39,536 bases of DNA from an uncultured Clostridia bacterium. GTDB lineage: Bacteria > Bacillota > Clostridia > Christensenellales > Borkfalkiaceae. The position numbers and the translations under genes are program-made. This document shows positions 1,878 to 31,627 of this stretch, piece by piece; the stretch's first letter is position 1; each line of letters opens with the position of its first letter. The notes under the pieces were generated by a model, which was not told the origin of the DNA, searched no databases, and saw only the letters and a program-made list of their open reading frames with translations. The DNA is taken from assembly GCA_947626305.1 (NCBI GenBank), contig CANQRP010000004.1:1-39536 (forward strand). Direction: 5' to 3'.

Positions 1878-1885
1878 ACGGCTCC

Positions 1886-8247: not shown

Positions 8248-11200
8248 ATGACGAAGGGACGCGCAAGGGCGCTTGTGATCGTTTCGGTATTGGTCTTGAT
8301 ATTCTGCTTTGCCGCGGGGTCGCTCGCGGTCGATTTTCTTTCCGCGCGCGCGGCGGACGAGGTGACGTATCGGCGCAAGATCGTCTCCGTCCTCTTCGAT
8401 AATTCCTATTCCATGCGCAACAGCGGGTCGCAGAACGAAAACAGAACGGAACTTGCAAAGTATTCTCTCGAAATGCTCGCCGCCCTTCTGAGCGAGCAGG
8501 ACGAGCTCTACATCACCACCATGAATCCCCGCGCGGACGGGGACGAGTCTACCATCGAAGTCGACCTTTCCGCGGCGGACAGAGAGTCCGAGATCGGGGA
8601 AAAGATCGTCGATACCAACGCCTTGCACCCGAACGGCACCACACCGGGCACTTCGGTCGGCAAGGCGCTTGCCGTTCTTACGGGGAGAGGACTTACCCTT
8701 GCGGGCGACGCCTCCTATACCGAGACGACGGATACCGAATACTGGCTCGTCATGCTGACGGACGGCAATTTCGACGAAGGAAATACCGACGCTCTGATCG
8801 AACGGAATATCAAGGGCTATCTCGGGCTGCACACCGTGTACATCGCCTTCGGCGGGGATGCGAAGGATCTTACGGACCCCAACATCGCCCTCAACAAGAA
8901 CTATCCCTTCTCCGCTTACTACGTGGTCGATTCGGGAGAACTCGTCTCTGCAATGCAGGATGTGTCCAACAAGATCTCGAGCCGATACGGGGCGGAGGCT
9001 GCCGACGCGCAATACTCCGTCTCGGGGAAGGAAGTCGTCGTCGATCTCGACCGATTCAAGTTTGCGGTGAACAACATCGCGGTGATCGCGCAGGACTGCG
9101 GCGCCACGTTGCAGAGCGTTACCTATCGGGGCAAGACCCTTTCGCCCACCCAGAAGAGCGCGCTCAACGGCTCCTTCGTCAACTGGGAAGAAACGCCGGT
9201 GCAGCTCGTGGAAAACGGTTATGTGGCGGTCGTGTCCGACGGCGATTGCATGTCGGGCGGGCAGGTGCATTTTGTATACGATCGGGAGGTCGGCGAGGAT
9301 GTCTCCATCCTCGTGGAGCCCGCGATCTACATCGACGCCTATCTCGAACGCGAAGTCGAAGGCGCGTGGGTCAAAACGAATATCCAGGAGATCAACGGCG
9401 AAATGCGCCCGGGCGAGGAAGTCCGCGTGCAATACAAAGTTTACAGCTCCGCGACGGACGAAGAGATCGACCTTGCGGAGATCTTCGGCGAACCTTCCGA
9501 AAAAGTCACCTACTGCGGCAGGGGGTACGCGGTCGGCGCGCCCATCCCTCTCGAAAAGGGGAGCAACGCCATCTCCGTCGCCATCTCCGTGCTGGACGGC
9601 TCCTATACAATGTACTCCACCATCATCTGCTATATCGAGGAGAACCCCACCTATTACCGTTTGGAGGGCAGGGTCGAGCAGAAGAGCGGCAGGACCGCGA
9701 CCGTCGTCTACACCCTTTTCGTCAACGATCGGCAAGTGGACCGCGAGGGGCTCAAAGGGTACAACGTAGAGGTCAAGGTCACTTATCCGGACGGCGCGGA
9801 CCGTTCTGCGCAGATCGCAAGCACCGCCGCGGACGGCAGCATGAGCGTCGAATTCGACGGCTCGTCGCTCGACTACGGGCAGTACGTCTTTACGGCAAAA
9901 GTCACCGATTTAGAGACGGGGCTCTCGCGGGTGAACACCCAAACGGTGCCCGTCGTTCCCAACGTGTTCGAAGTGACGTGCAACACGTCGGAAAAACTCC
10001 GCGTCAGCGCCTTTCGTTTAAGCAAGGAATCCTTCAAAGTGGAATTTTCCGCCTTGATGGACGGCACGCCGACCGCCTTTTCCAATTCGCTCATCCGCTA
10101 CAAGCTCTTCCTCGGCGAAAACGATGTAACGGAAAAGAGCACCGTCGAAAAGGGGAATTTGACGATCTATCTGTCCGACGACGTGGTGTCGGACCTCACG
10201 ATCGGCACCAAGACGCTCCGGCTGCAAGCGGACATCCTCGGGCAGACGACGGCAACGGCGAGTTACGAGTTCGAGATCGTCGGCTCCGTCTACCGCGTGG
10301 AGACGGTGGAAAACGGCTCCCGCGAGCTGGACGTGCACGACCTCAAAAACAAACAGGCGGCGGTCTCCTTCCGGGTCTATAAGGACGAGATCCCCTGTAC
10401 GGCGGAGGAACTTTCCGCCGCGCTCGAAAGCGGGGCGGTCGGGACGGATGCCGCTCCCTTCGGCTGGCTCACCTGTCTTCCCTACGGAATGGAGATCTCC
10501 GTGGAGGACAACGGCGACCCGCAGATCGTTTGCAGTGTAAAAAAGGACATCGCCTCGCCCTTCGATTATTTCCTCGCCACCTTCATCTTCGCGCGGGAAA
10601 AGACGGTGACGCTTACCTACGAGGGAGCAACTGCGAGCGACACGATCTCGATCGAAACGCTCAACTGGGGAGAACGCATCTGGCGTTGGGTGCTCTTCCT
10701 CATCATCCTGCTCATTTTGCTGCACATCGCCCTCTTTGTGATTGGCTTCTTTGTGGCAAAGCGGCTCCCGAAGGGCATGATGCTCCGCTTCAGTATCCCC
10801 ACGCAGCCGAACGGGATCGTTACAAAGCCGTCTGCATCCAAAATCAACATGACCTTCAAAGAGATCTTCCTGTGGCATCTCTCGCGCTTTATTCCCTTCA
10901 GGGAATTCGCCAACCAGCGCCCGAGATCGTGCAAAGAGGTCGTATTGCGCGTCAACGCAAAGACGAGACGTCCCGAATTGGTGCCGACGAAGGACATGGC
11001 GGAATATCAATACGTCCAACTCTCTTCCAAGGACGGACAAGCGCTCGCCGAAGTGCTTGCGGATGCCGCCCAAGGAAAAATGCCCGGAAAGATAAAGATA
11101 AGCAGGCGCACCTTCATGACTTTCCTGCGGAAGAATTCCAACGAGGTCATCCAAAAGGGCGCTCCGCAGGGGATCCCCGGTTGGTATTGCGTGCTGAAAG

Positions 11201-11283
11201 TTGTGGATACGCGTACGAAACGGACGAGCGAGGCAGCCGCTTACCACTTCGTAGAGTATCGCCGCAAACGGAAAAAACATTGA
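8248..11283 (+). CDS. Membrane-anchored VWA-domain protein with Ig-like ectodomain and cytoplasmic tail
   Basis: This 1011-aa protein is the first gene of the eight-gene operon. The start at 8248 follows GAAGAAGGGGG and gives a proper signal anchor (about 8-30); an in-frame ATG at 8059 has no such context. The VWA domain (about 43-245) has a complete metal-ion-dependent adhesion site: DxSxS at Asp51-Ser53-Ser55, Thr131/132 (TTPGTS) and Asp172 (MLTDG). About 550 residues of beta-rich, Ig-like repeats follow, with Tyr/Val-rich strands (such as YVFTAKVTDLETGLS). One TM helix lies at about 811-836, and a basic cytoplasmic tail of about 175 residues ends RRKRKKH. The topology predicts VWA outside and tail inside. 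VWA proteins bind protein ligands through Mg2+. Genes for tubulin-like GTPases of the Tubulin_2 type are known to me as VWA neighbours. Tail docking to the tubulin-like proteins is inference. Confidence 0.88.
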   Translation: MTKGRARALVIVSVLVLIFCFAAGSLAVDFLSARAADEVTYRRKIVSVLFDNSYSMRNSGSQNENRTELAKYSLEMLAALLSEQDELYITTMNPRADGDESTIEVDLSAADRESEIGEKIVDTNALHPNGTTPGTSVGKALAVLTGRGLTLAGDASYTETTDTEYWLVMLTDGNFDEGNTDALIERNIKGYLGLHTVYIAFGGDAKDLTDPNIALNKNYPFSAYYVVDSGELVSAMQDVSNKISSRYGAEAADAQYSVSGKEVVVDLDRFKFAVNNIAVIAQDCGATLQSVTYRGKTLSPTQKSALNGSFVNWEETPVQLVENGYVAVVSDGDCMSGGQVHFVYDREVGEDVSILVEPAIYIDAYLEREVEGAWVKTNIQEINGEMRPGEEVRVQYKVYSSATDEEIDLAEIFGEPSEKVTYCGRGYAVGAPIPLEKGSNAISVAISVLDGSYTMYSTIICYIEENPTYYRLEGRVEQKSGRTATVVYTLFVNDRQVDREGLKGYNVEVKVTYPDGADRSAQIASTAADGSMSVEFDGSSLDYGQYVFTAKVTDLETGLSRVNTQTVPVVPNVFEVTCNTSEKLRVSAFRLSKESFKVEFSALMDGTPTAFSNSLIRYKLFLGENDVTEKSTVEKGNLTIYLSDDVVSDLTIGTKTLRLQADILGQTTATASYEFEIVGSVYRVETVENGSRELDVHDLKNKQAAVSFRVYKDEIPCTAEELSAALESGAVGTDAAPFGWLTCLPYGMEISVEDNGDPQIVCSVKKDIASPFDYFLATFIFAREKTVTLTYEGATASDTISIETLNWGERIWRWVLFLIILLILLHIALFVIGFFVAKRLPKGMMLRFSIPTQPNGIVTKPSASKINMTFKEIFLWHLSRFIPFREFANQRPRSCKEVVLRVNAKTRRPELVPTKDMAEYQYVQLSSKDGQALAEVLADAAQGKMPGKIKISRRTFMTFLRKNSNEVIQKGAPQGIPGWYCVLKVVDTRTKRTSEAAAYHFVEYRRKRKKH

Positions 11284-11347
11284 GCGTCGTCGGCGACGGT
11301 CGATTTGAATATAAAACATCATCATAGAAAAAAGAGAGGAGAAACTT

Positions 11348-15160: not shown

Positions 15161-15205
15161 CCGAGACGTTGTTTGTGCGGACCGGGCAAAAAAGGAGGGC
15201 TTTGT

Positions 15206-18200
15206 ATGAGAAATGTTCTTATTTTGGGACTGGGCGGAACGGGAGCGAATGTTGTCGATCTCTTTTTCGCGGACCGCAAAGACGTCTCCTGTTTTGTGCT
15301 CGATTCGGACGCGGAGGCGATCTCGGCGCTCTCCTGTCCCAAAGTGTGCATGACCGAGAACATGTCTCTCGGGAATGCCGTCGAAAAGCTGGACAAAAAA
15401 ACGGTATCCGAATTTTTCCCCTGCGATCCCTCGCAGGGGAAGGCGGATTACATCAGAACGCTGGAGATGGGCAAGGGTGCAAACGGATGGCGCATGAAGG
15501 GGCTTCTCTCCTTCGAATGTATGCTGTCCGATTCCGAAAAGTGCGGGGAGTTCCACAGCGCGCTCGACGCACTCGTCAAGAAGGACGACCGCTATGCGAA
15601 GATCGCGGTGACGATCGTCGCTTCTCTGGCGGGAGGAACGGGCAGCGCACTGTTTTTGCCCGTTGCGCTCTACATCAAGCGCTATTTCCGCTCGAAATTC
15701 GGGCGGGATGTCGCGGTCAAGGCGCTCCTTGCATGCCCCGATGTGTATGCGGGTTCGCTCACGTCGGAAAACAAGGTCAAGGCATGCGCAAACGCTTATG
15801 CCGCTTTGCAGGAACTCAACGCCGTCGACCTCGTGTGCAAGGGATACAACAAACAGGCAAAAGAGGAGAGCAGGTGCCTCGTCCATTACAGGATCGGCTC
15901 TTTGAAGAGCCGCATCGGCGTCCTGTTCGACGCCTCGAACCCGGAGTTTGCCACTCCCTCCGCGCAGCCCTTTGCGGGGGTGTATCTCTTCGATAAGATC
16001 CCCGGCACGGAGACGGTCCCCGCGCACGAGCGGGTCATGGCGCGCATTCTCGGCATGATCGTAGACGACGAAGCTCCGAACACCAAGGAACTTTATTCGG
16101 GCATCTCCGTTGCCGAAGTCGTCTTCGCGGGCGACAAGATCGTCGAGTATGTCGCGAAGAAGAAAGTATATGACGATATGGAGCGGGAGTGGCTTCCGCT
16201 CTATCAAAAGACGCCCAAGGACGAGGAGTGCAAAAATACCGCGGAATTTGCGGAGAACTTCACCGCGCTCTATCGGTCGCTGTATACGCAAAACCGTTAC
16301 AGCCAGCATCTCGCGCTCGGCAGAGAGACGGAAGAGGAGGTGCTCTCCGGGGAAGAGGACGGCGAACCGTCCGTGTCCGAAGAGGAACTTCAAGACTATG
16401 TAAAACGGCTAACGGACGGGTATTTTGCCCTGCTCGACAACGAGTTTGCCAAAAAAGCGAAGGAGGAGATCGAAAACGCCGACAAGGACGTGGCGCCGAT
16501 CGGTCTGTTCGACGGCAAGGCGAAGAAGCGGAAAAAGGTCGCGGCGGTGCAAGACCGCGCCGCGCGCTACCACGCCATTCTCCTCGATTATTTCAAAGCA
16601 GGCACGAAGACCGTTCGGGAGAAGAGAGACCGCGTGCGGGCGGAACTGCTCTCCACCTCGGATCCCAATTCCCTGCTCAACAATCTCATTCTCCGCAACG
16701 GAAAATATCTGCACCCCGTCACGGCGCTTTTGCTCCTGTCCGAAGTCTATCTTCTCCTTCGGAGAGAGGCGCCGACCGCCGAGAAAGACAAGATCTTCGG
16801 CGAAGCATTCTCCGGCAAGGAGCTGCCCGACTTTGTGTTTACGCGTGCGGCGCTCGACCAGAACGTTTCAAGGGAATATGCGCAGTTCGGTCCCGCGCGG
16901 TTGAAAGCGTTGGCGGCTTCCGATGCGGAAAGCCTGTCTCCCAAGCTCGTCGGGGCATTCCCGGAGATCAAGCGGGATTTTATCGACCTCTATTCCTTCC
17001 TCACGGGCAAGCTCGCGGAACGCTTCCTCGATCTTGCACTCGGGGCGCTCTCCGCCTTGATCGAAAAATACAGAGAGCTGTTGGACGCGATCCCGTCCGT
17101 GCTGTCCGATCACCGCACGGACCTGAAACTCGCCCTCGTCGCAAACACCTCCGATACGTGCACGCTCATGAACGTCGGTTGCTCGGAGGAGAACAAACAC
17201 GAGGCATATGCGCGGTACATCAAGGACAAGGGAGCCGCCGCCTCCCGCGATGAGACGACGGGCAGGATCTTCTTCCGCCATGCCGTGCGGGAGGGCAAGG
17301 AGAATCTCTTTGCCGAACTCTGCGAAGAGGAGAGAAAGCGCGTTCTCGAAAACCGCGAGATCAAAACCGCGTGCGAGCGGGATATTTTCCGCGTTCTTCT
17401 GGATCGGGACCTCTTTCGGGAAGATCTCCCCGAACGCACCGAATATCGCGATTTCGAGCAGGCGTTCGGTCTCGTCCCTCTGCCGCTCGATCTCGAACCG
17501 CGGGACCCGTACACGAACGAGCCCGTGGATACGGAGACGGTGACGATGGTCCCTGCCGAAGCGGCGCAGTTCGCCATGGACCGCCTCCGCGACGATGATC
17601 TCTCTCCCCGTCAGGCGGCGGAGAAATACGTTTACTCTCAGGGCGGCTTCGAGGCGAGCGTCCTCGTCTCGGATACCGTTCCGAAGAACAGGCTCTTCGC
17701 CACACGCAAGGTGCGCGGTTTTCCGCTCTACCTTTTCAACAAGATCAACGAAGACGGCGAAGGCGCCGGCTACTACAAGTTTTACAGAAAGGCGCTCAGC
17801 GTCAAAAAGGAACAGGATTCCCCGATGTGGGATCCCCATCTCGTCAAGGAGAACGCGGGGGACTTTCTGCCCTTCATCGACCCCGCCAAACGGGATGAGT
17901 TCGAACGGAGCGTGTATAAAGCCGTACTCTGCCTTTTGCGGAGCGGGCTTTTGAGCGTGGAACAGGCGGAAGGGGACAAAGATTACTTTTGCTATAAAGA
18001 AGAGGACCGCAAGACGGAGGTGCTGGTCGAAAAGAAGCGCGTCACGGCGCCCGAACGGCTCTTCGGGTTCGTGCGGGAAAATCCCGAGCTTGCCGAAATC
18101 TACGGCACGGCATTCGACAGGGAATTCGAAAAAGAGCTCTCCCTGCTCCCTCCCGTCGGTTTCGAAAAGACGGACCTTCCCGTGTTGAAGCGCGCGATCG

Positions 18201-18541: not shown

Positions 18542-18578
18542 GTTCCTCCGACGCGACCTTTGAAATCAAGAGGAAATT

Positions 18579-20744: not shown

Positions 20745-20745
20745 T

Positions 20746-23700
20746 ATGGTTACGTTTATCAAAGTTCTCATCCTCATTCTGTCACTGTTTTTGATGTTCT
20801 TCCCTCTGCTCCCGATCAAGACCAAGCGGGGGAGATTCAAGACCATCGCAACGCTCAAATACGAAAAACCGCATTTTCGCATGAATGCGGCGTTTCTCCT
20901 TTTGTCGATCGCCGAAGTGATCGCCTTTGCGATCGCGGCGAGGGGGATCTCCATGCTCGGAGAGCTGATCGCGGCGATCCCCTTCGTAGGTACCTTCCTC
21001 GCGGACGTGCTCGCGCGGGTGGACCCCACGCTCGGCTACATCGCCTTTGCGGCGACCGTTCTTTTGTCCAATCTTCTGATTGTGTACGTGTATGCGGCGT
21101 TCAAGGCATCGCTCAAAGCCATTCTCGACCCGTTCGTCTATACCGATGAGGAAAAGCGCGAACGGAGAGAAAAGAGAAGAAAAAAGAAGAAGGAAGAGCA
21201 CAAAAAGAAGAATCGCTCCGACAAGCGCGACCTCGTGCTCCCCGTGGAAGGGGAGGAACCCGAAGAAAAGCCCCTCGTCACCGACAACATCCCCGTCCTG
21301 AAGCATGTGCGCAAAGAGGAGGAAGGCGACGAAAAGGGGAAAAAGCAGGAGGGAAAGAAGGAGGAGAAGAGGGAACGGGCGCAGCAACGCACCCGCGAAG
21401 AGAAGACGGAAGAGGAAAAAGAGAAGCGCAAACCCAATTTTCTCGTGCGGCTCTTCTTTGAATCTCCCGAATATCTGTATGCCAAACCGTGGGTACGCAG
21501 GATGGAGATCATTCTGCAATACTTCGTGTATGTCACGGAGGCGTTCTTCCTGTTGTTCTTTGCGGCGATCTTCCTCTCCGCGCTCTTCCCCGCGTCGCAC
21601 GGGGTATATAATTTCTTGCTCAACACGCTGCAAGTGCGGAACTGGTATTACTATCCCTTCCTGTCTCTCATCATGTTGCAGGAGATCTGCAATATCTTCC
21701 ATACCGATCTCCGTCCCGTGGAAAAGAAGGAGGAGGAGAAGACGGAGGAAGAACTCATCGAAGAGAACAAGGTGGCGCTCCGTGACCTTGCCGCCGAGCT
21801 CAAACGGTACTTCGACCGCGACCACAAACTTCGGTTCTATCCGGGCGCGGAAGTCAAGCCGAACAAATTCGAATATCGGTTCACCAACAGCCAATACATG
21901 GCGGCGCTCGAATATATCCGCCGCAGATTCGCCAACAAGTGGGGGAGCGGGCAATCCTATCTCGAATGTATGGACGCCCTCTATAACGAAGAGCACGTCT
22001 ATTTCTGCGGCTCCTTCTATTCCCAGATCGGCGAATATGTCATTGCCTACACCTATACCCGTCTGCTTTCCGGCGCAAGGTTGATCTTCATCGTCAACGA
22101 CGCACATAAGCGGAACGCGGTACGGAAATATATCCAGAGCCGTCTCGTGGAGATGACGGGAGGAAGCGCAGAGACCACCTGGCGTGTGTACACGAGCGAC
22201 GACCGTCTCGACCAGGCGGACATCCTCGTCGCTTCGCCCGAGGACTTCAAGGACGACAACATCGTGGAAAATTTCCCCGATTTCTTCGAGGAAGTGTGCA
22301 ATGCCGTCTTCATCGACGCGGACAAGGTGGTCTCCCTCGAGAGCTATCTCTGTCCCGTGCTCGCCATTCGCCTGCACAAGGCAACGTCGGACAGGATCCG
22401 CTTCCTGTTCCTCTCTACCGACCTCTTGCGCGGCTTTGCGGCGTCCAGCCTGCCCAAGCTCTTCTGTGTGGAAAAGGTGCTCAGTTTTTCGAGCGCAAAC
22501 GACAACGAGTCGGTGGAATATACCCTTTGGAACAGAGAGAGCCTCAAAAACCGCATTTACTACAAATACGGGCAGAAGCTCATGAGCCTCGAAGGCATCA
22601 TCGCCGAAAAAGCCTACAAATACGGCGTAGACGGCATCCGTGTGATCACGGCGTCTTCCATCGACCACGGTGAGAGAGAGGTGCTCGAAGGGCACGGGGT
22701 GGAGATCAACGAGTTCTTCAAGGACGTTCCCAAGATCAACTACATGATCTATACGGACGAGCGCAGCAATCTCGCGGCGGCGATCTACGCCTGCACCCGC
22801 TTCAAGGGACAGCGCAATTCCGTCAGCCAGATCATCAGCAAACCCTACCTCCTCCGCGACTACTTCATGGCGAAGGCGACGAAGGAGAATTTCATCAAAC
22901 GTTCCTCCTACATCCAGCCGAGGATCACCGAACACGCCAAGAAGGAAAAGCTCAGCCTGCTCAAAGTCTTCTGCCGCGCGTCCGCGGAGGGCGGCATCAG
23001 CGTCGACGAGTTCATCAAAGAAATGCGGGATGTCATCTCGCTCTCCCGCATCCGCGGGGACGTGCCGCTGTGCAAATTCTGCGCCGATCCCTTCTATCGG
23101 GAGCTCGGAGATTGGTTGACGGAGTACGACTACGCCGCCTACCTGATCGCGGCGCTCTGCGACGATCCCGATACCGACGTCAGAGACAGCCACGCCATCA
23201 AAGCGAAGGATTACTATCTGGTGTTCGACCAGATCAACCGCGAACAGTATTCCCTCACCAAGGGCAAGTACATCGTGTTCCGCAAGGTGCGCGAGGTGTT
23301 CGAAAAGGTGTTCTCCTGCAACGACAGGGTGGTCCTCTGCCTCAACGACCGTCCGATCGGAAGCCTCGATACCTTCTCCACCCGGCTTCCCCTCGAATAT
23401 GTCGTCGGTCAGTCCATCGTCTATAACAATGTGGAATACGAGATCGAGCAGATCTCCGCGGACAACAAGATCGTCTTCCTGCGCAGGGAGAACGTCACCT
23501 ACAAAAACTGCCTCGATACCCTGTTTTTACGCCGTTATAAGATCTATTACAGCGAAAAGATCGGGCAGGACGGCGCCGTGTACAATTCCGGCTCCCTTCT
23601 CAAAGAGATCCGCGTCTCCTTGCAGCGCGTGGGCATGGAAGGGGAGACGTACGGGTTTTACAACCTGATGTCCAACAACCAATCGCTGAACTTCAAGCGC

Positions 23701-26700
23701 GGCGTGGAGGGGAACCCCCACCTCGAACGGGAGATGGTAGACCGCAACCGCCGCGTCCTTTCGGACGGCAGAATGCTGCGCGTCACGCTGGATACGGGCA
23801 TGGAGTGCACGGACGGCATGAGGATGCTCCTCTCCGCCGTATTCAACGAATTCATCAAGACTATGTTCCCGATGGCGTACCGCTGCATCGCCGTTCTTCC
23901 CGTGCTCATGGAGGAGATCCCCGCCGAAGAGCCGGAGTGCGACGACGCCGATGCGCGCGCCGTGGAAAAGATCAAGCGCCTCTATCCCTATCGGGTGGAC
24001 GTGGGCGGATCTTTCTTCGACGCCGTTGCCCGCATTTACGAGTACGTCACGGGGGAGAGCGCCGAAGAAGCGGAAGAGGCGGAAGAGGCACCCGTCGAGG
24101 AGCCTGTTGCGACCGCGGAGACCGAGGAGGTTCCCGCAGAACCTTCTTCAAACGAGCCCGAAACGCCCGCGGAGACCGAAACGCCTGAGGAGCCCGAGGA
24201 GCCGTTCGATCTTTGCGCCTTCCTTGCGGAGCATCCCGAATGCCGCGATACGTTGGAAAAGTTTTATCCCGACCCCGCGGAAGAGAACGAAGCGCTCGAC
24301 GAGAAGCTCGACGAGCTCTGTCCGAGACTTTTGCCCGCCGACCGCAAGTGCGTCAAGAAGATCGTTGCGCTCTATCCGAAGATCGCCGCGGCAAGAGCCG
24401 ATTTCCGCGAGACGGACGCGCAACGGATGCAGTTCCTCTTCCTGAACGATTGCACGGAGGACGTGGGCGTCTTCGACTGGTTCTACGATAAGCTCGCGAG
24501 CAATATGCAGGAACTGCTCATCAACGTCTATTCCTACCTGTATTGGCTGAACGCCCGCCGCGACCTCAACCACTATATTTATTTCGGGTTCGACGCCCTG
24601 CCTTCCTGTTACGACCTCGAGGGGGCGTGCAAGCTGCTGGCGGACTACAACATCATCATCAGCGATAACGGCGAACAGAACTACGAGACCGCTTCGGACA
24701 GCGACGAGGAGGAGATGCGTCGGTGCTCTTTCTGCCACAAGCGTATGGAAAGCGGAAGATACAGCTTCTTCGACGAGGAGAAGACGATGTACGTCTGTGC
24801 CGACTGTATGGATCTGGTCGGCAAGCCGGAGCGTCTGCACGAGCTCGACAACGAAGTCCGCAAGTACCTCGAAGCCACCTATCCCGAGATCTCCTTCGGG
24901 CATGCCGAGGTGGAATTCGCGGCGGAGGACGAGCCGCTCAAAAATCTCGGCGAATGGTATTTCCGCATCGACCCCGACCATCGGAAGATCGTCGTCGGCT
25001 ACGATCTGCCCGAGAAAAACGCCAGGATCGCGATCTTGCTCGGCATGATCTCCTTCTGGCAATACGACAACGACCTCATGACCGAATATTCGGGCGCACA
25101 ACTCAGTTATGAAGAGCGGAAATATCTGCGCAAATTCGGCGACCCCGAAACGGTGGAATGGCTTGCGGAAAACATGAGCGAAGAGCGCCGCACGAATGTG
25201 AATGCCATCAAAGAGTGCATCAAGGCGCACAGCGACGACAAGAAGTACACGAGCTTTTCCGCCATGCGCGAACTCGGCGACGCATTGCGCGAGGAAGAAG
25301 ATGGCGTGGACTACGAAGACATCGAGGGCGAAGACTATTCCGACGGGCTCTACAATCCCCGCAAGACGCCTCGCTTCTGGAAGCGCTACCTCAGGAACAG
25401 TGCGTTGGACGAGACCTCTCCCGAGGACGACGAGCCCGAAGAAGAACCTTCGGACGACGAAACCGACGAGGAGATCGCTTCGGACGACGAAACCGACGAG
25501 GAGATCGCTTCGGATGACGAAACCGAAGAAGAACCTTCGGATGACGAAACCGACGGGGAGATCGCTTCGGACGACGACGCCGTGGAGCCTTCCGAAGGCG
25601 ACTCCGAAGAGGGCGAAACGGAGGAAGAGATGCCCGACGAAACGACCGAAACGGACGACACCGTAAACACGGACGAAACCGAAAATACGGAAGAGACCGA
25701 GAGCACGGAAGAGACCGAAAGCGCGGAAGAGACCGAGAGCACGGAAGAGACCGAAAGCGCAGAAGAGACCGAAAGCGGGTCGGCGCCGAAACTCAATTGC
25801 GGGGTCTACCGTCCCGCGAAGCACAATTGCCCGCCGCCCGACGAGGACGACCTCACAGACGACCTTTCCGAAGACCTCGACGAAGACCTCGGGGACGAAG
25901 ACCTCGGAGACGAAGACCTCGGAGACGAGGACCTCGCGGAGGATCTCAAAGAGGACGGCGAGGAGCCCGAGGAGACGCTTTCGGATGACACCGAGGACTT
26001 CCCCGAAGACCTCGACGAAGACCTTGCGGAGGACCTCGGAGAGGACGGCGAAGAGCCCGAAGAAACGCTTTCGGACGATTTCACAGACGACCTTTCCGAT
26101 GACCTCGACGAAGACCTTTCCGATGACCTCGGGGACGAAGATCTCGGGGATGAGGACCTTACGGAGGACCTCGACGAGGACGGCGAGGCGCCCGCAAAGG
26201 AGCCCGTAAAGGAAAAAAAGAAGGAGAAGGCGGCAAAGGGCGCGGCCAAGGTCGGTCGCGCGGCGAAGAAGAAAGAGGGAAAGCGGGAGGATGAGAGCGA
26301 GGAGCGCATCCTGCGGCGGATCCAAGAGAAGAACGTAGGGCTGAAGATCGTGCCCTACGAAGAGGACGAAAAAGAGAATCCCTCCATCCGCGTCTACAAC
26401 GAATTCGTGCGCCATGCCTACAATTTCGACGAGGAATCTTTCTCGCGGGAGGGGGTCGACAACGATAGGTTGCAGCAGATCTACAACTGCGTCATCGGCG
26501 ACTATCCAGAGCTCTTCTGGTTGAGCGGTTATGTCTATTCGGGCGAAAAGGTGCACCTCAGCTTCCGTTGCAGAAAGCCGTCGGGCGGGTTGGACGTCAA
26601 ACAGATCCTCAAAAAACTGCGCGAGATCAAGCGCGGTTCCCGCCATTTCACCCGCGGCATTACCAAAAAGACGGACCCCTACAAGGCGTTGATCAAGATC

Positions 26701-27471
26701 TATAAACGTCTGATCCTGACCCTCGACTACGACGGAAAGGGGCTGGAAGCGGGCATCGATGCGGATCTCACCAAAGACGATCGTCTGCGCTCGCTGCACA
26801 GCGCGATCGTGCGCAGAAAAACCGTCTGCGCGGGCTACGCCTCGGCGATGCAGTACCTCTGCCAGCGGGTCGGCATTCCTTGCGCCTATGTCGGCAGCGA
26901 GTTTGTCGGCAATTCCGGGCACGCCTTCAACATCGTCAAGATCGGCAAATATTGTTACTATCTCGACGCGACGTGGGGAGATCGCTCCAACACCAAGCGC
27001 GGGGACGAGTACCGCGATTTGATCGACTTCGACTATTGCTGCGTGCCGTATCAAGAATTCATCATGGCGCATGAGAGCGCGGTCCACAACCACATTCCCG
27101 ACCCGGACATCTACCCTTGGTTCAAGAAGGAATTGAAGGCGAACCGCCACGAGTACTATCGGTACAGAAAGGCGCTGTTGTCCCGCTACAACGAGGACGA
27201 TCTCGTGCGCATCTTCGCCTATTGCGCCGAGCACTACAACCCAAAGGAGGACGGCAGATTCTCCGTGAGCTTCCGTTGCACGAGCTTGGAGCTTGCACAC
27301 GATCTCTTGAACAAACTGCGCAACCCCGCCACCTATCAGAGGATCGTGGACAACGCCAAAAAGCTCCTCAAAAAGAAGAAGCATGCCGCAAGGTTGTTCG
27401 ACCGCCGGGTGGAGTTCCTCTCCGTAGGCTATACGTCCGTCGTCAAGATCTTCTACAAAAAAGCGAAATAG
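20746..27471 (+). CDS. 2241-aa membrane protein: degenerate helicase-like region, zinc ribbon, acidic repeats, transglutaminase-like domain
   Basis: The start at 20746 has a GGAGGGAAGGG site. TM helices lie at about 4-23, 48-70, 98-120, 255-284 and 303-320, with a Lys/Glu coiled region between the third and fourth. About 370-900 looks like a two-lobe helicase fold with decayed motifs: a Walker-A position reading CGSFYSQIGE (421-430), ASPEDF (496-501), FIDADK at the DEAD-box position (522-527), LSTD (556-559), then ITASSIDHG and a strand domain (VGQSIVYNNVEYEIEQIS) like that after Lhr-type cores. A zinc ribbon has Cys1327/1330 and Cys1351/1354. An acidic repeat tract spans 1555-1815, followed by a Lys/Ala-rich segment. 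The C-terminal transglutaminase-like domain keeps Cys2028 (TVCAGYA), His2059 (GHAFNIV) and Asp2074 (LDATWGD). I infer a processing or cross-linking scaffold. The TGase-like call is firm and the helicase-like call moderate. Confidence 0.85.
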   Translation: MVTFIKVLILILSLFLMFFPLLPIKTKRGRFKTIATLKYEKPHFRMNAAFLLLSIAEVIAFAIAARGISMLGELIAAIPFVGTFLADVLARVDPTLGYIAFAATVLLSNLLIVYVYAAFKASLKAILDPFVYTDEEKRERREKRRKKKKEEHKKKNRSDKRDLVLPVEGEEPEEKPLVTDNIPVLKHVRKEEEGDEKGKKQEGKKEEKRERAQQRTREEKTEEEKEKRKPNFLVRLFFESPEYLYAKPWVRRMEIILQYFVYVTEAFFLLFFAAIFLSALFPASHGVYNFLLNTLQVRNWYYYPFLSLIMLQEICNIFHTDLRPVEKKEEEKTEEELIEENKVALRDLAAELKRYFDRDHKLRFYPGAEVKPNKFEYRFTNSQYMAALEYIRRRFANKWGSGQSYLECMDALYNEEHVYFCGSFYSQIGEYVIAYTYTRLLSGARLIFIVNDAHKRNAVRKYIQSRLVEMTGGSAETTWRVYTSDDRLDQADILVASPEDFKDDNIVENFPDFFEEVCNAVFIDADKVVSLESYLCPVLAIRLHKATSDRIRFLFLSTDLLRGFAASSLPKLFCVEKVLSFSSANDNESVEYTLWNRESLKNRIYYKYGQKLMSLEGIIAEKAYKYGVDGIRVITASSIDHGEREVLEGHGVEINEFFKDVPKINYMIYTDERSNLAAAIYACTRFKGQRNSVSQIISKPYLLRDYFMAKATKENFIKRSSYIQPRITEHAKKEKLSLLKVFCRASAEGGISVDEFIKEMRDVISLSRIRGDVPLCKFCADPFYRELGDWLTEYDYAAYLIAALCDDPDTDVRDSHAIKAKDYYLVFDQINREQYSLTKGKYIVFRKVREVFEKVFSCNDRVVLCLNDRPIGSLDTFSTRLPLEYVVGQSIVYNNVEYEIEQISADNKIVFLRRENVTYKNCLDTLFLRRYKIYYSEKIGQDGAVYNSGSLLKEIRVSLQRVGMEGETYGFYNLMSNNQSLNFKRGVEGNPHLEREMVDRNRRVLSDGRMLRVTLDTGMECTDGMRMLLSAVFNEFIKTMFPMAYRCIAVLPVLMEEIPAEEPECDDADARAVEKIKRLYPYRVDVGGSFFDAVARIYEYVTGESAEEAEEAEEAPVEEPVATAETEEVPAEPSSNEPETPAETETPEEPEEPFDLCAFLAEHPECRDTLEKFYPDPAEENEALDEKLDELCPRLLPADRKCVKKIVALYPKIAAARADFRETDAQRMQFLFLNDCTEDVGVFDWFYDKLASNMQELLINVYSYLYWLNARRDLNHYIYFGFDALPSCYDLEGACKLLADYNIIISDNGEQNYETASDSDEEEMRRCSFCHKRMESGRYSFFDEEKTMYVCADCMDLVGKPERLHELDNEVRKYLEATYPEISFGHAEVEFAAEDEPLKNLGEWYFRIDPDHRKIVVGYDLPEKNARIAILLGMISFWQYDNDLMTEYSGAQLSYEERKYLRKFGDPETVEWLAENMSEERRTNVNAIKECIKAHSDDKKYTSFSAMRELGDALREEEDGVDYEDIEGEDYSDGLYNPRKTPRFWKRYLRNSALDETSPEDDEPEEEPSDDETDEEIASDDETDEEIASDDETEEEPSDDETDGEIASDDDAVEPSEGDSEEGETEEEMPDETTETDDTVNTDETENTEETESTEETESAEETESTEETESAEETESGSAPKLNCGVYRPAKHNCPPPDEDDLTDDLSEDLDEDLGDEDLGDEDLGDEDLAEDLKEDGEEPEETLSDDTEDFPEDLDEDLAEDLGEDGEEPEETLSDDFTDDLSDDLDEDLSDDLGDEDLGDEDLTEDLDEDGEAPAKEPVKEKKKEKAAKGAAKVGRAAKKKEGKREDESEERILRRIQEKNVGLKIVPYEEDEKENPSIRVYNEFVRHAYNFDEESFSREGVDNDRLQQIYNCVIGDYPELFWLSGYVYSGEKVHLSFRCRKPSGGLDVKQILKKLREIKRGSRHFTRGITKKTDPYKALIKIYKRLILTLDYDGKGLEAGIDADLTKDDRLRSLHSAIVRRKTVCAGYASAMQYLCQRVGIPCAYVGSEFVGNSGHAFNIVKIGKYCYYLDATWGDRSNTKRGDEYRDLIDFDYCCVPYQEFIMAHESAVHNHIPDPDIYPWFKKELKANRHEYYRYRKALLSRYNEDDLVRIFAYCAEHYNPKEDGRFSVSFRCTSLELAHDLLNKLRNPATYQRIVDNAKKLLKKKKHAARLFDRRVEFLSVGYTSVVKIFYKKAK
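25408..26190 (+). repeat. In-frame acidic low-complexity repeats inside the giant gene
   Basis: Codons 1555-1815 encode three kinds of short repeat: SDDETDEEIA-type (about 25450-25580), EETES(T/A)-type (about 25680-25785), and (G)DEDL / DLDEDL-type (about 25850-26170) with two longer copies of EDGEEPEETLSDD. The DNA repeats are near-identical (for example GGAGACGAAGACCTC units) and would be prone to length change by slippage. The protein segment is almost purely Asp/Glu and should be disordered. It is a protein-coding repeat and not an array of spacers. Confidence 0.95.
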
Positions 27472-27483
27472 AACATGAGAACG

Positions 27484-27507
27484 GGCGGCGGCGCCTCTGC
27501 CGCCGCC
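27484..27507 (+). other. GC-only intercistronic hairpin before the 407-aa membrane gene
   Basis: GGCGGCGGC (27484-27492) pairs perfectly with GCCGCCGCC (27499-27507) around a 6-nt loop. No T run follows, so it is not an intrinsic terminator. It lies between the stop of the giant gene (27471) and the next ATG (27524), whose ribosome site is weak (GGGGATATG). It may protect the 3' end of the upstream message or limit expression downstream. Confidence 0.7.
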
Positions 27508-27523
27508 TCGGGGATATGAAAAA

Positions 27524-28747
27524 ATGAATGCTGTATTTGCGGCGATCGCTTCCGCGTGGCATGCCGTCTCCTCGGCAGTGATCCGGGGCGTCGGCTTCGT
27601 GGCAGGCACCGTCGGCGGATGGTTTGCAAAGATAGGGCGAAAGTTTTTGTCCTTCGAATGGGTCAAACGCATCTGCGAATTGTTCAAAAAAATCTACGGC
27701 TTTTTGAAGAAGACCGTATTCAACCCGAAAGTGGTGAAGATCGCGAAGATCGTTTTGAGTTTCGCGCTCTTCGGGCTCGCTGTCGCGCAGATGGTCTTTG
27801 CGGCGTTGACCCTATTTTCGGGCGCTTCGGCTGCGTTGACGGGCAAGGCGGACTCCGTGATCTTTTTCGTGCTCAATGCACTTTCCGCCCTCGTTTGCGC
27901 CGCATTTTTGCTCTCTTTTGTGTTTGGGCTGTTCAAAAAGACATTTCGGTACGGCTTTGTCGGCGCATTGCTCTGCTTTTACATCATTGCGATGATGTCG
28001 GCGGAGTTCACGGGCGCACCCCTGTACCGTGACCTTGCGGAAAACATATTCGGGCTCAAAATCGCCGCCATCGTCGTGTTTGCGGTTTTGGCGCTCTTGA
28101 AATTGACGGACGAGGAAAAGCCGACGAGCATCCTTGCCTTTCTTTTTTGCGTCCTTTCGGCTGTGGCGATCGTGCTCCTCTACCGCATGGGGGGCTTCGG
28201 CGGCATTGCGGCGTACGATTTCGGGCAGGAACTTCACCTCGGCGCGGAGGAGGTGGGCGCGCTCGCCTATTTCCGCCGCCTGGGAGAATTTCTCTCGGGT
28301 GCCGAGAGGGGAGGCGGCGTCTCGGGGGCGATCTTGTCGCAGAGCCTCGCCCTGGCGGAGACGTCGGGGAAATTCGCCGCGGCGTTTGCCGCAGCGGGCA
28401 ATTGCCTGGTCTGCTTCGTCTGCTCCCTCGCTCCCTACGTCTTGCTCACGGCGCTGACAGGCTGCTTCATGGGGGCGCTCAACGACCGCCTCGCGCAGAC
28501 GGTCTATCTGTCGAGGACATTAAAGACCTTCAAATATCTCTTTTTCGGCGTCCTCGTTGCCTTCCTCGCGGCGCTCTGCGTGCAGCCGCTCTTCGGGGAC
28601 GGACCGATCGTGCTCCTTCCCGACTTCGTTGCGGCGCTCGTGGCGTTGCTCTCGACCGCCGCGCTCGCGGGGGGCTGCGCCCTGTCCCGCAAGATGATCG
28701 CGGACAAGTACGCCCATAAATTAAAGATCAAGGAGAAGCTCGCGTAA
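27524..28747 (+). CDS. Polytopic membrane protein of the tubulin-like operon
   Basis: This 407-aa protein has about eight TM helices (near 76-99, 110-137, 143-160, 178-195, 205-222, 298-325, 340-360, 366-388). An amphipathic, Trp/Lys-containing N-terminal part (1-70) could lie on the membrane surface, and a Gly/Ala/Ser-rich loop lies at about 225-290. The C-terminus is basic (KYAHKLKIKEKLA). No transporter or enzyme motif is visible and I do not recognise the family. The start at 27524 has only a weak ribosome site and follows a GC hairpin. It is separated by a single base from the next gene, so it probably acts with it. Membrane localisation of the complex is the only safe inference. Confidence 0.78.
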   Translation: MNAVFAAIASAWHAVSSAVIRGVGFVAGTVGGWFAKIGRKFLSFEWVKRICELFKKIYGFLKKTVFNPKVVKIAKIVLSFALFGLAVAQMVFAALTLFSGASAALTGKADSVIFFVLNALSALVCAAFLLSFVFGLFKKTFRYGFVGALLCFYIIAMMSAEFTGAPLYRDLAENIFGLKIAAIVVFAVLALLKLTDEEKPTSILAFLFCVLSAVAIVLLYRMGGFGGIAAYDFGQELHLGAEEVGALAYFRRLGEFLSGAERGGGVSGAILSQSLALAETSGKFAAAFAAAGNCLVCFVCSLAPYVLLTALTGCFMGALNDRLAQTVYLSRTLKTFKYLFFGVLVAFLAALCVQPLFGDGPIVLLPDFVAALVALLSTAALAGGCALSRKMIADKYAHKLKIKEKLA

Positions 28748-28748
28748 T

Positions 28749-29303
28749 ATGGCGAAGACAGGGGCGGCGGGAAGCGCCGCATATCGCGAATGCAAACGGT
28801 ACTTTGCGCGGCGGATCGTCGCTTTGGGGGAGGAACTCGAGGGCGTGCGTTCCGACTTGAAAGCGTCGCTCGAAGGGAGCCGTTCCGCCTATCGGAAGAT
28901 CGGAAAAGAGAGCGCAAGGTTGTTCGGAAACGACCCGTTGAACTTTTTCATGTTTGCGGGTTGCATCCTGTTCCCGTTCGCCGTGCTGTGTGTGCTCTTG
29001 CGCCTTGTCGGCACGTCGGCGCTCGTCAGCCTGCTTCCCGCGATCGCGGGTGGCATCCTCATCGCCGCGGTCGCAGCCGTAAAACTTGCGAAGACGGCGA
29101 AATTCCGCAAAGCACGCGCTTCTTTCCGCGCCGCCTGCACGTCTTCCGAGGAACAACTTGCCCTTCAAAACAAGCTCTTTCGGGTCAAGGCGATCAGAAA
29201 GAAGAAGTTGAAGCGCATCTATAAAATGTTAAAAAAGGATCCGAACATGAGCGAAGCGAAAATCAGGGAACTCAGGGCGGAGTTCGATCGGATCGCAAAG
29301 TAA
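28749..29303 (+). CDS. Small two-TM membrane protein with coiled-coil ends
   Basis: This 184-aa protein starts one base after the preceding stop, with AAGGAG inside the end of that gene (translational coupling). A charged helical N-terminus (about 1-60) precedes a TM hairpin (about 68-88 and 92-112). A long basic C-terminal helix follows (RKKKLKRIYKMLKKD), ending in an acidic/basic segment. Both ends are predicted to be cytoplasmic. The layout is a miniature of the 721-aa coiled-coil protein upstream. No known family was recognised. Given its position it is probably a small subunit or adaptor of the same membrane assembly. Confidence 0.78.
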   Translation: MAKTGAAGSAAYRECKRYFARRIVALGEELEGVRSDLKASLEGSRSAYRKIGKESARLFGNDPLNFFMFAGCILFPFAVLCVLLRLVGTSALVSLLPAIAGGILIAAVAAVKLAKTAKFRKARASFRAACTSSEEQLALQNKLFRVKAIRKKKLKRIYKMLKKDPNMSEAKIRELRAEFDRIAK

Positions 29304-29323
29304 AATACAAAAGTGAGGTTTTC

Positions 29324-31432
29324 ATGAGAAGATTCAAAGAGTGGTTCAGCATTCAGCTTGCAAAGCACCCCGCCCGTGTGGTGCTTCTCGCAATCTTGCT
29401 GTTCAACGTGGTCTTTTTCATTTCGGCGGCGCTCGTCATCAAAAATCTTGCGCTGAACGGAACGGAAGAGATGAGCTTATTCGAGGCGGCGTTCTATACG
29501 ATCACCATGATCCTCGATGCGGGATGTATCCAATTCGTCGTTGCGGACATCGGCGAATCCGGCATCGCGATCGCGGTCGTGTGTCTCGTCATCGTCCTCA
29601 TCGGGATGGTCTCCTTCACGGGCGCCGTCATCGGTTATGTCACAAACTACATCTCCAACTTCATCGAGAACTCCAATTCGGGCATGCGTCGGCTCAGGAT
29701 CTCCTACCACCTCGTCATTCTCAATTGGAATACGCGCGCTTCGGAGATCATCAACGACCTTCTGTATTGCCGCAAGAGGCAAAAGGTCGTCGTGCTTGTC
29801 GGCGGCAGAAAGAAGGAGATCCAGAAAGAGATCGAAGAGCGCATCACGGATACCATCCACCGCGAAAACAGTGCGCTCCTGCTGCGCTGCCGCAAACTCG
29901 GGCTCCGCAAATATTTCGTGTACTTCCGGGAAAAGCTGCACAACAATTTAACGGTCATCCTCCGCGAAGGCGACGTGTTCTCCGCAAAGCAGCTCCACGA
30001 CATCTCCATCGAGCGCGCCCGTTCGGTGGTGATCCTCGGCAACGACGTCAACAATTCCATCTGCCAATACGGCAATCGGGAGAGGATCGAGGAGAACGGC
30101 AGGGGGAATGCCCAAACGGTAAAGACGCTCATGCAGGTATCCGACATCACGGGCGCCGAATATTCTCTCGACAATCAGAAGATCATCGTCGAGATCTCCG
30201 ACGACTGGACCTGGGAGCTCGTGCAGCGCATCATCAGCTACAAACAGGTCCAAGGCAAGTGCAACATCGTTCCCGTGCGGGTCAATCAGGTGCTGGGGCA
30301 AATCCTGTCTCAATTCTCGCTCATGCCGGAGCTCAACCTTGTCTACAAGGAGCTCTTCTCCAACAAGGGTGCGACCTTCTTCGTCGAAGAAAAGAAGGTG
30401 TCCGACGAGAGCGGTTATATCACCGAGTATCTGAAAAACCACCGTTCGGCGATCCCGCTCACGACGCTCAACTCGGGCGACAAGGACTATTTCGTCTATG
30501 CCGCGGGGAACGAAAAGGACATTCAGAAGACGTACGAGCGGACGGAGACCGGTTTCACCGTCAAACTCAACCGCAACTATTGGATCGAAAAGAAAAACGT
30601 CATCATCCTCGGGCACAACAGCAAGAGCAAGGATATCATGCAGGGCTTCTGCGCCTTCCGCGACGAGTGGAACTATAAGGACGGAGAGGACGAGATCCTC
30701 AACATCATCGTCATCGACGACGAGCAGAGCCTCGAAAAGATGAACTATTACCGCGAATATCCCTTCGTCACCGAAACCGTGTCCGCTACCGTCTACGACG
30801 AAGCGCGCATCTGTTCCACGATTGAGCGCTTTGTGGACGCCAACGAGGACGACACGAGCATCCTGATCCTCTCCGACGATTCCGCCCTCACCGAAAACAT
30901 CGACGCCAAGGCGCTCGCCAATCTCGTGTATGTGCAGGATATCATCAGCGCCAAAAAGAGTCGGGACAGCAATTTCGACGTGGAGAGCATCGACGTCATC
31001 GTCGAGATCCTCGACCCGAAGCATCATGACATCGTGAGCAGTTACAGCGTCGACAATGTCGTCATCAGCAACCGCTACATCAGCAAGATGATCACGCAGA
31101 TCGGCGAGAAAGAGGCGATCTTCGATTTCTATACCGACATTCTGACCTACGACACCGAGGACGCCGACGCATACGAGAGCAAAGAAGTGTACACCAAAAA
31201 GGTCTCCGCCTTCTTCGAGAAGATCCCCGGGGAGTGCACCGAAGAGGAGCTCATCCGCGCCGTGTGGAACGCCTCCGTTGACCCGTCCATCCCGAAGGAA
31301 AAACAAAATCCCACGGTCGTGCTCGGCTATGTCAAACCGGGCGGAAGGATCACGCTCTTCGAGGGCGACCGCACGGTCAGAAAGGTCAGGCTCGAAAAGA
31401 ACGACAAGATCATCGTCTTCACCAATCACTGA
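29324..31432 (+). CDS. CASTOR/POLLUX-like ion channel with tandem RCK-type domains
   Basis: This 702-aa protein has TM1 at about 18-38, a pore helix and filter near 55-70 (YTITMILDAGCIQF), and TM2 at about 81-106. In plant CASTOR/POLLUX channels the filter contains ADAGNH/ADSGNH; DAGC (65-68) fits this and not the TVGYGD of K+ channels. The first Rossmann-like RCK domain begins HLVILNWNTRASEIINDL (129-146), matching the family's H-VILGWN start, and a second begins NVIILGHNSKSK near 425-436. The rest matches the family's long cytoplasmic gating ring. The plant proteins are Ca2+-activated or Ca2+-permeable nuclear-envelope channels; bacterial ones are largely uncharacterised. It is the last gene of the operon and is followed by a strong terminator. 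Confidence 0.88.
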   Translation: MRRFKEWFSIQLAKHPARVVLLAILLFNVVFFISAALVIKNLALNGTEEMSLFEAAFYTITMILDAGCIQFVVADIGESGIAIAVVCLVIVLIGMVSFTGAVIGYVTNYISNFIENSNSGMRRLRISYHLVILNWNTRASEIINDLLYCRKRQKVVVLVGGRKKEIQKEIEERITDTIHRENSALLLRCRKLGLRKYFVYFREKLHNNLTVILREGDVFSAKQLHDISIERARSVVILGNDVNNSICQYGNRERIEENGRGNAQTVKTLMQVSDITGAEYSLDNQKIIVEISDDWTWELVQRIISYKQVQGKCNIVPVRVNQVLGQILSQFSLMPELNLVYKELFSNKGATFFVEEKKVSDESGYITEYLKNHRSAIPLTTLNSGDKDYFVYAAGNEKDIQKTYERTETGFTVKLNRNYWIEKKNVIILGHNSKSKDIMQGFCAFRDEWNYKDGEDEILNIIVIDDEQSLEKMNYYREYPFVTETVSATVYDEARICSTIERFVDANEDDTSILILSDDSALTENIDAKALANLVYVQDIISAKKSRDSNFDVESIDVIVEILDPKHHDIVSSYSVDNVVISNRYISKMITQIGEKEAIFDFYTDILTYDTEDADAYESKEVYTKKVSAFFEKIPGECTEEELIRAVWNASVDPSIPKEKQNPTVVLGYVKPGGRITLFEGDRTVRKVRLEKNDKIIVFTNH

Positions 31433-31509
31433 CGGGCGGCGCGGTTTTTTCGGAAAAACGCACCCCATATCCTCATTTCGAACAATTTGTATTCGGACTA
31501 TCGCGAATG

Positions 31510-31557
31510 CAGCCGAACTTCTTCCGTACTCCCGGAAGCTGGTTCGGCTGTTTTTTT
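31510..31557 (+). terminator. Intrinsic terminator of the tubulin-like operon
   Basis: CAGCCGAAC (31510-31518) pairs with GTTCGGCTG (31542-31550). An inner CTTCCG/CGGAAG stem extends it, and T7 follows (31551-31557). It lies 78 nt after the channel stop and closes the eight-gene unit. Confidence 0.93.
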
Positions 31558-31598
31558 GATGTTCGGGCGGGAGAATGCGGCGCGCCGGATTTGAGAGA

Positions 31599-31627
31599 TT
31601 GACGTTTGGCGCGGAATGTGCTATAAT
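31599..31627 (+). promoter_or_regulatory. Sigma-A promoter of the 174-aa gene
   Basis: TTGACG (31599-31604), a 17-nt spacer and TATAAT (31622-31627), placed 33 nt before the TTG start. It lies after the operon terminator, so this gene is an independent unit. Confidence 0.88.

Follow-up and report, generated by a model that had tools for sequence, protein, structure and literature searches.

Within the tubulin superfamily the Tubulin_2 proteins count among the most divergent, and none of them has, to our knowledge, an experimentally established function. Two described kinds of operon come closest to the one reported here. For FtsZl1, a Tubulin_2 protein encoded with VWA proteins, the main text of Makarova and Koonin (2010, PMC2875224) proposes membrane remodelling, whereas a reviewer's comment published with it argues for signalling or transport instead. 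Kaur et al. (2020, PMC7159879), in the sections on the GAP1-N2/DO-GTPase systems, interpret these as serving in conflict; tubulins are present in about half of them, and the Firmicutes form has two tubulins and a membrane VWA protein. Here we describe an operon of eight genes, g1 to g8, in a 39,536-nt stretch of DNA from an uncultured Clostridia bacterium (contig CANQRP010000004.1 of GCA_947626305.1, a 1.54-Mb assembly that is 74% complete); the whole stretch is called the window below. Four of the genes form a core that recurs in other Clostridia. From sequence comparisons we read the operon, with a probability of about 0.42, as a membrane-anchored, tubulin-scaffolded sensor-effector machine, a new type within the VWA-Tubulin_2 kind that would most likely act in a conflict setting. 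Its genes are as follows.

8248..11283, + strand: g1, VWA protein with an N-terminal signal or anchor, a predicted extracellular VWA domain and one late hydrophobic segment
11348..15160, + strand: g2, Tubulin_2 protein A (T1 loop at 11369-11389, T4 loop GGTGSG at 11777-11797)
15206..18541, + strand: g3, Tubulin_2 protein B (T1 loop at 15227-15247, T4 loop GGTGSA at 15629-15649)
18579..20744, + strand: g4, 721 aa, with a predicted transmembrane hairpin at residues 538-590, in the C-terminal third
20746..27471, + strand: g5, giant membrane protein with N-terminal transmembrane segments, a central conserved region, a C4 zinc ribbon, a degenerate peptidase, an acidic linker and a transglutaminase
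27524..28747, + strand: g6, polytopic membrane protein; no copy found outside the window clade
28749..29303, + strand: g7, 184 aa, two hydrophobic segments; no copy found outside the window clade either
29324..31432, + strand: g8, CASTOR/DMI1-like ion channel with the pore-region motif LDAGCI at 29513-29530

The core order VWA, Tubulin_2, g4, g5 is found in 14 clusters, the window included; 13 are contiguous and one (G150) is split over two contigs. Nine of the 13 other clusters were reached through genomes bearing a relative of g8. A GTDB scan for such relatives gave 19 loci, 8 of the 19 genomes hold Tubulin_2, and the nine clusters from this set (G061, G062, G066, G067, G070, G072, G074 and two in G078) are all in core order. 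The unbiased sample consists of the five genomes, one of them the window's own, that match a profile built on the central region of g5 among 391 genomes of the class; the match in G145 is weak (3e-16). Tubulin_2 occurs in 14 of these 391 genomes at E ≤ 0.001, with 11 over the cut-off, and all five g5 genomes are among those 11. This sample contributed four further core genomes: G114 and G401 plainly fit, and G145 and G150 are also consistent with the order. In G145 extra open reading frames (ORFs) separate the VWA gene from the tubulin gene, and in G150 g5 consists of two overlapping ORFs. Among 398 genomes of the phylum the g5 profile matches only G000 and G114, and relatives of g2 are patchy within the genus (2 of 37 genomes, the window's own included). 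Many of the genomes are metagenomic assemblies.

The four core genes also diverge together. In each of the six pairings of VWA protein, tubulin, g4 and g5, pairwise identities are correlated (Mantel rho 0.60-0.85; n = 13 clusters, G150 omitted), with a permutation p of 0.001, the lowest value attainable. The idea that the homologues are merely scattered singly fails for the core because it recurs in 14 clusters and co-diverges. The first-pass annotation had described the eight genes as one operon; recurrence as a unit is supported for VWA-tubulin-g4-g5 but not for the eight as a fixed set, since g6 and g7 are confined to the window and two close relatives (L009 and L010) and g8 lies mostly away from the core. 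One genome, G078 (L040 and L041), carries two divergent copies of the whole core.

What the window operon has in common with the FtsZl1-VWA operons, as the main text of the 2010 paper presents them (PMC2875224), is Tubulin_2 proteins extended by a long C-terminal part and, next to them, VWA proteins in most of which DxSxS is retained. A VWA gene is present in the Tubulin_2 operon in 14/14 clusters. Unlike the operons of that main text, the window operon has no recognised OmpA-like protein or P-loop GTPase, and its type adds g4, the giant g5 (zinc ribbon, peptidase and transglutaminase) and CASTOR-like, RyR-like and TIR accessories. g4 and g5, set apart here by the main text only, may overlap a family left unnamed in the additional files (A1-B9). 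The Kaur et al. systems (PMC7159879), in the sections devoted to them, similarly have tubulins (two in Firmicutes, as with g2 and g3), a transmembrane protein with an extracellular VWA domain, a membrane focus and exchangeable effectors. They are also described there with two VWA genes, one fused to YtkA, and one VWA gene is recognised in the window operon. No GAP1 or DO-GTPase model matched the eight window proteins up to E = 1, with G339 and G369 as positive controls for DO-GTPase; the DO-GTPase test of the other clusters was partial. GAP1-M (PF20014) was found in one of nine cluster genomes, on another contig, in a whole-genome search that did not include GAP1-N2. Separate clusters of the Kaur type are present in the same class sample: G369 (GAP1-N2, 2e-39), G339 (DO-GTPase2, 1e-9) and G286 (GAP1-M, 2e-4, below the cut-off). 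We regard the operon as a second type of a known kind because tubulins and a membrane VWA protein are shared and GAP1 and DO-GTPase were not found. We found no paper describing this type in the literature within reach, which did not extend to subscription papers, preprints and supplements.

The metal ion-dependent adhesion site of g1 (DxSxS, 8398-8415) is kept in 14/14 core VWA proteins. The Pfam VWA_2 match of g1 is below the cut-off (E = 0.061), and its identity is supported by the profile match to the VWA proteins of other clusters (window clade against the two other groups, 2e-24 and 1e-23 in local profile-profile comparison). The two genes with tubulin signatures noted at first sight both match Tubulin_2 (PF13809) well above the cut-off of 27 bits, g2 with 124.3 bits (9e-36) and g3 with 83.3 bits (2.6e-23). 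Both have the GTP loops T1 and T4 (GGTGS), with GGTGSA rather than GGTGSG in g3; in a few relatives, such as G145, the motif pattern missed one or both loops. The tandem tubulin pair was seen in the window clade only. In G072 (L036/L037) a second tubulin gene lies beside the core on the opposite strand.

Proteins at the g4 position are 620-740 aa long, and the transmembrane hairpin is predicted in 12/12 of those examined as well as in g4 of the window. We treat them as one family on the basis of position, size, hairpin and co-divergence, without profile matches. The AlphaFold model of g4 is of low confidence, with a mean predicted local distance difference test score (pLDDT) of 41.6.

The longest frame of g5, opening at 20707, encodes 2254 aa. 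In local profile-profile comparison the g5 proteins of the window clade match those of both other groups (E 3e-23 and 3e-17). An acidic linker (residues 1531-1870; 45% D+E) precedes the transglutaminase. Four regions of g5 are considered below.

21424..23916, + strand: central region (residues 240-1070, counted in the frame from 20707), perhaps with a degenerate SF2-helicase-like fold
24724..24807, + strand: C4 zinc ribbon (CxxC...CxxC)
25036..25062, + strand: site aligned with HELTHxWQ of relatives, reading LLGMISFWQ
26644..26943, + strand: transglutaminase-like domain, Pfam PF01841 match at 9.5e-7

In 8 of the 14 clusters (G066, G070, G072, G074, two in G078, G114 and G401) g5 contains the C4 zinc ribbon and a HELTHxWQ...EG peptidase, and in an alignment of these eight proteins the four cysteines and the EG are also invariant. 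All eight match DUF6782, a putative metallopeptidase family, at E ≤ 1 (best 5.6e-8). A DA1-like identity was rejected for the peptidase because Pfam DA1-like matches only two of the eight (best 0.11). The HExxH motif has been lost in the window, L009 and L010, as the aligned site reads LLGMISFWQ. The g5 of G145 is short and without HExxH, and those of G067 and G150 are cut by contig ends.

The giant protein had also been called transglutaminase-like, and here the call is well founded: besides the PF01841 match, g5 has the full Cys, His and Asp triad, in VCAGYA (26824-26841), GHAFN (26917-26931) and LDATWGD (26962-26982), the last of which lies just past the Pfam match and holds the presumed catalytic aspartate. 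The domain is fused to the C terminus of g5 in the window, L009, L010 and G074, and is encoded by a separate downstream gene in G066 (five genes on), G070, G072 and G078a. Of the 12 clusters uncut by contig ends, 8 thus have the domain either fused or close by; it was undetected in clusters G078b, G114, G145 and G401. By eye, the four separate transglutaminases have lipoprotein- or signal-like N termini. The g5 of G074 (L038:12910-18822, 1970 aa) has both an intact HELTH peptidase and a fused transglutaminase and is intermediate between the two architectures.

Support for the term "helicase-like", applied to g5 in the first-pass annotation, did not come from family models, and the structural support is weak. 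By sequence, helicase identity is at most possible: Pfam scans of 12 g5 members gave no helicase model, and the g5 profile searched against PDB up to E = 10 returned one irrelevant match (two for an earlier nine-member profile). With hhalign, the best of 30 DEAD-type ORFs reached 10.1% and the runner-up 2.8%, and none of 30 random decoys exceeded 1.0%. No Walker A GKT/GKS occurs in residues 240-1070. AlphaFold modelled this region poorly (mean pLDDT 39.6). Searched with this model, Foldseek returned superfamily 2 (SF2) helicases as the majority of the 50 matches shown, the top three being RIG-I, MDA5 and MrfA (E 3.6e-4 to 7.7e-4, TM-score 0.13-0.17 over the query, all from the low-confidence model), and the list also holds other P-loop NTPases such as nitrogenase Fe protein and signal recognition particle GTPases. 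Because of the low confidence of the model, the list of matches serves as a hint only. The likeness of g5 to SF2 helicases (RIG-I/MDA5, MrfA and Hel308) is a weak fold match, which weakly suggests a possible degenerate SF2 fold; unlike them, g5 is membrane-anchored, without Walker A and without a sequence-profile match.

The CASTOR/POLLUX-like channel of the earlier description is borne out by g8, whose profile matches only DMI1 (1.8e-6) and CASTOR (3.2e-6 and 3.3e-6) in PDB at E ≤ 0.01. These are whole-chain values; no single stretch is significant alone, and the best stretches span 66-114 residues. Castor_Poll_mid gave 0.0069, below the cut-off, in the L014 copy of g8. D65-A66-G67 of the putative filter are invariant in 15/15 aligned g8 proteins. 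In CASTOR the filter reads ADS(A)GNHA, and its aspartate D265 is required for conduction, according to the relevant sections of PMC6697748; g8 D65 is equated with D265 by motif, not by alignment. With the plant nuclear Ca2+ channels CASTOR, POLLUX and DMI1, g8 shares profile similarity and this invariant filter-region aspartate (DAG). Unlike the plant channels, for which those sections give four predicted transmembrane segments (PMC6697748), g8 is bacterial and has three hydrophobic segments, and its Ca2+ selectivity is putative.

g8 is rare, being present in 4 of the 391 class genomes and in 3 of 61 relatives, all three in the genus. It lies beside the core in the window and in 4 of the 19 other loci (L009, L010, L014 and L022), downstream in four of these five clusters and upstream in one. 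The other 15 loci have no core gene alongside, and several are on short contigs or at contig ends. Unlike the core, g8 is 56-81% identical across the genomes of the nine clusters compared, and none of the core genes diverges in step with it (rho -0.02 to 0.13, p 0.22-0.55, n = 9). Tubulin_2 is held by 8 of 19 g8-bearing genomes versus 14 of 391 in the class sample, a comparison in which lineage and habitat are confounders, and the g8-core association is biased because nine clusters were found through g8-bearing genomes. Judged by these comparisons, g8 behaves as a putatively independent accessory channel gene that moves separately. A family of polytopic membrane proteins occurs near g8 in both the window (33666-34946) and L019 (8664-9884), in differing arrangements.

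Other partners recur around g8 and the core. A transmembrane protein, F1, adjoins g8 in L010, L014, L023 and L026. A RyR scan covered two of its copies: that of L014 matches the RyR domain at 3.9e-5, below the cut-off, and that of L023 has no RyR match at E ≤ 0.05, only TrkA_N at 0.032. The gene order is g8-F1-TIR in L014 and F1-g8-TIR-LRR in L023, and downstream of g5 in G074 come F1 and a TIR gene. TIR proteins stand beside 4 of the 14 core clusters (G066, G074, G401 and, convergently, G078b); for 8 of the 13 clusters of other genomes this rests on the TIR family search, and for the rest on a three-sequence profile or inspection by eye. This arrangement, and the TIR protein beside g8 in L023, recall Thoeris-like TIR systems; unlike in Thoeris, no known Thoeris pair was recognised. 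Of three L014 proteins scanned with PADLOC, only the TIR protein matched. In L023 (8077-14064), F1, the CASTOR-like channel and TIR-LRR stand in a row, with no tubulin core on the stretch and no Tubulin_2 in the genome, forming a possible stand-alone TIR-to-channel module. At L010:12614-15151 (- strand) the gene after F1 encodes a protein of 218 aa that includes the stretch AVTGHR and weakly matches DNA_processg_A (0.0039); we take it to be possibly a SLOG-like nucleotide-ligand sensor. In G114 (L044/L045) a Ser/Thr protein kinase upstream of the core and a subtilase-domain protein downstream of it are candidate partners.

The eight ORFs of the window run from 8248 to 31432 on the + strand with gaps of 64, 45, 37, 1, 52, 1 and 20 nt, given starts at 15206 for g3 and 20746 for g5. 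Alternative starts are TTG 15173 for g3 and the in-frame ATG 20707 for g5, which would overlap g4. The g1 frame is also open from ATG 8059, and the start at 8248 has the purine-rich GAAGGGGG just upstream. The eight genes are taken as real because all are conserved in order in L009/G061 and L010/G062 (G062 and G007 are one record, with the same g8 coordinates), where g4 to g8 are 40-81% identical to those of the window. A crude scan finds hydrophobic segments in g1 (2), g4 (2), g5 (5), g6 (8), g7 (2) and g8 (3); it also flags two weak stretches in g3, coinciding with the T1 and T4 strands. Two transcription signals bound the operon.

7920..8247, + strand: presumed promoter region between the divergent sensor kinase and g1, with only 9/12 promoter-like sites, at 8124-8153
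31509..31557, + strand: intrinsic terminator ending the operon, a long hairpin with T7 behind it (-27.9 kcal/mol, z -6.0)

Promoters and terminators were scanned on both strands of 7000-20000 and 20000-33000, slightly beyond the operon, with shuffles as background. Promoter-like sites were at chance (4 versus 3.6, standard deviation 1.7, in the first half; 2 versus 4.8, standard deviation 2.1, in the second), as were terminator-like sites (19 versus 17.4, standard deviation 4.4; 21 versus 15.8, standard deviation 4.5). The sole + strand promoter-like site within the operon, at 19122-19150, is a 9/12 match. The first-pass annotation fares well here. Its eight co-directional genes with gaps of 1-64 nt and a strong end terminator are confirmed by the ORF calls and the hairpin, its two tubulins and six proteins with transmembrane segments are recovered, and sites resembling promoters or terminators show no excess over chance across 7000-33000. 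We infer a single transcript for g1 to g8.

Divergent from the operon, at 4620-7919 (- strand), lies a hybrid sensor kinase (SBP_bac_3, HisKA, HATPase_c and two receiver stretches). Regulation of the operon by this kinase was considered and rejected: full-length relatives are found in members of the genus without the cluster, and the five such stretches examined had no other window protein beside them, so that we claim no link. A 1154-aa ORF antisense to the kinase (4593-8057, + strand) has no Pfam match and is probably spurious. Just past the operon, 31599-32238 holds a strong sigma-70-like promoter (TTGACG-17-TATAAT, 11/12, extended -10) followed by the Shine-Dalgarno-like GGGAGGAGGG and a small gene, an ORF from TTG 31660 to 32184 (174 aa, no Pfam match), with a 10-bp hairpin at 32216-32238. 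At 301-2839 (- strand) are ZnuABC-type metal uptake genes for an ABC-3 permease, an ABC ATPase and ZnuA.

Taken as a sensor-effector machine, the operon might work as follows. The outward VWA domain would bind a metal-dependent ligand on the cell surface or wall and so read surface or wall state, and its cytoplasmic tail, with the membrane parts of g4 and g5, would relay that state to the tubulins. The tubulins would polymerise on the inner face of the membrane with g4 and g5 as anchors, and polymer formation would cluster and activate g5, whose attached hydrolase, of peptidase or transglutaminase fold, would execute a local or suicidal response. With the peptidase degenerate in the window strain, the fused transglutaminase would be the likely executor there. 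In some strains TIR proteins and the channel may join or amplify the response, the channel admitting Ca2+ or other cations. The setting would most likely be a conflict response, against an invader or to cell damage, rather than growth or division. We favour it because of the partner genes and the patchy distribution (2/37 of the genus). By analogy with the conflict systems of Kaur et al., whose design is alike, a defence or conflict role would best fit the TIR, peptidase and transglutaminase neighbours.

Several observations weigh against this reading. Co-divergence of the core may be attributable in part to species phylogeny and groups of close relatives. Homology of g4 is strong inside groups and weak between them (hhalign scores the window clade at 7% and 0.5% with the other two groups, which reach 55% with each other), and the gene at the g4 position in G145 matches no g4 profile. 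TIR genes are present in 19 of 20 genomes searched, with up to 18 in each, so adjacency in 4 of 14 clusters is only moderate evidence; no TIR gene lies near the window operon, and the genome's own is on another contig. PADLOC defence models gave no match for window g1, g2, g4, g5 and g8, with g3, g6 and g7 unscanned. As for mobility, g5 and g8 had no plasmid match and neither is in IMG/VR; g8 had no phage match, and g5 was not searched in phages. Finally, the charges around the g5 transmembrane segments (positive-inside rule) predict a cytoplasmic soluble part, fused transglutaminase included, which conflicts with the exported look of the separate copies.

Envelope remodelling is a serious rival to the conflict reading, even if we consider it somewhat unlikely. 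Following the published proposal for FtsZl1 operons (Makarova and Koonin, main text, PMC2875224), the tubulins would shape the membrane or place wall enzymes, the VWA protein would hold the wall, the transglutaminase and peptidase would process envelope proteins, and the channel would report tension or ions. Predicted membrane segments in six of the eight proteins and the signal-like N termini of the four separate transglutaminases, noted by eye, agree with such a machine. A patchy distribution (2/37 in the genus; g5 in 5/391 of the class) and TIR and RyR/TrkA-like partners, which are not envelope-building proteins, speak against it, as does the preference for signalling or transport voiced by the reviewer in the 2010 paper (PMC2875224). 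Mechanosensing, which the first-pass annotation had also raised, is not supported. A different and rather improbable account would accept VWA-tubulin-g4-g5 as one system and make the channel, with g6 and g7, an unrelated neighbour captured by chance. It draws on the usual location of g8 elsewhere (15/19 loci) and its lack of co-divergence with any core gene; it has to explain why five clusters (window, L009, L010, L014 and L022) have g8 within the core or adjoining it and why Tubulin_2 is in excess in g8 genomes (8/19 versus 14/391), though lineage and habitat confound the latter.

VWA domains can be adhesins, and the four relatives' transglutaminases appear by eye to be exported, so that a contact-dependent or secreted weapon, its transglutaminase or peptidase acting on other cells, might be imagined. 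We consider this very unlikely, as the g5 transglutaminase and peptidase follow membrane segments that predict a cytoplasmic location, and the Pfam scans of the window, which were not aimed at such functions, gave no secretion apparatus or immunity pair. Nothing was found in favour of the contact-dependent device once suggested for this operon, for which no specific search was made. A bolder and doubtful reading would place the operon in a new class of tubulin-scaffolded bacterial immune or regulated-death systems, in which g5 would be a membrane-anchored, degenerate SF2-helicase-like sensor (a RIG-I/MrfA-like fold without ATPase) and tubulin polymers a signalling platform with interchangeable outputs. 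Just as doubtful is the assignment of those outputs, namely metallopeptidase, transglutaminase, TIR signalling and a CASTOR-like Ca2+ channel that would execute the TIR or polymer signal.

If true, this immune or regulated-death reading would tie bacterial tubulins to TIR enzymes and calcium channels. The analysis defines a second type of Tubulin_2 operon. It is built on four genes that recur together, includes a giant protein of a new family and has accessories whose chemistry is predictable (transglutaminase, metallopeptidase, TIR and a Ca2+-channel-like protein). Because the core, the giant family and the accessories are now defined, the role of Tubulin_2 tubulins becomes directly testable, and the possibility is raised that cytoskeletal polymers may serve as signalling platforms in bacterial defence.

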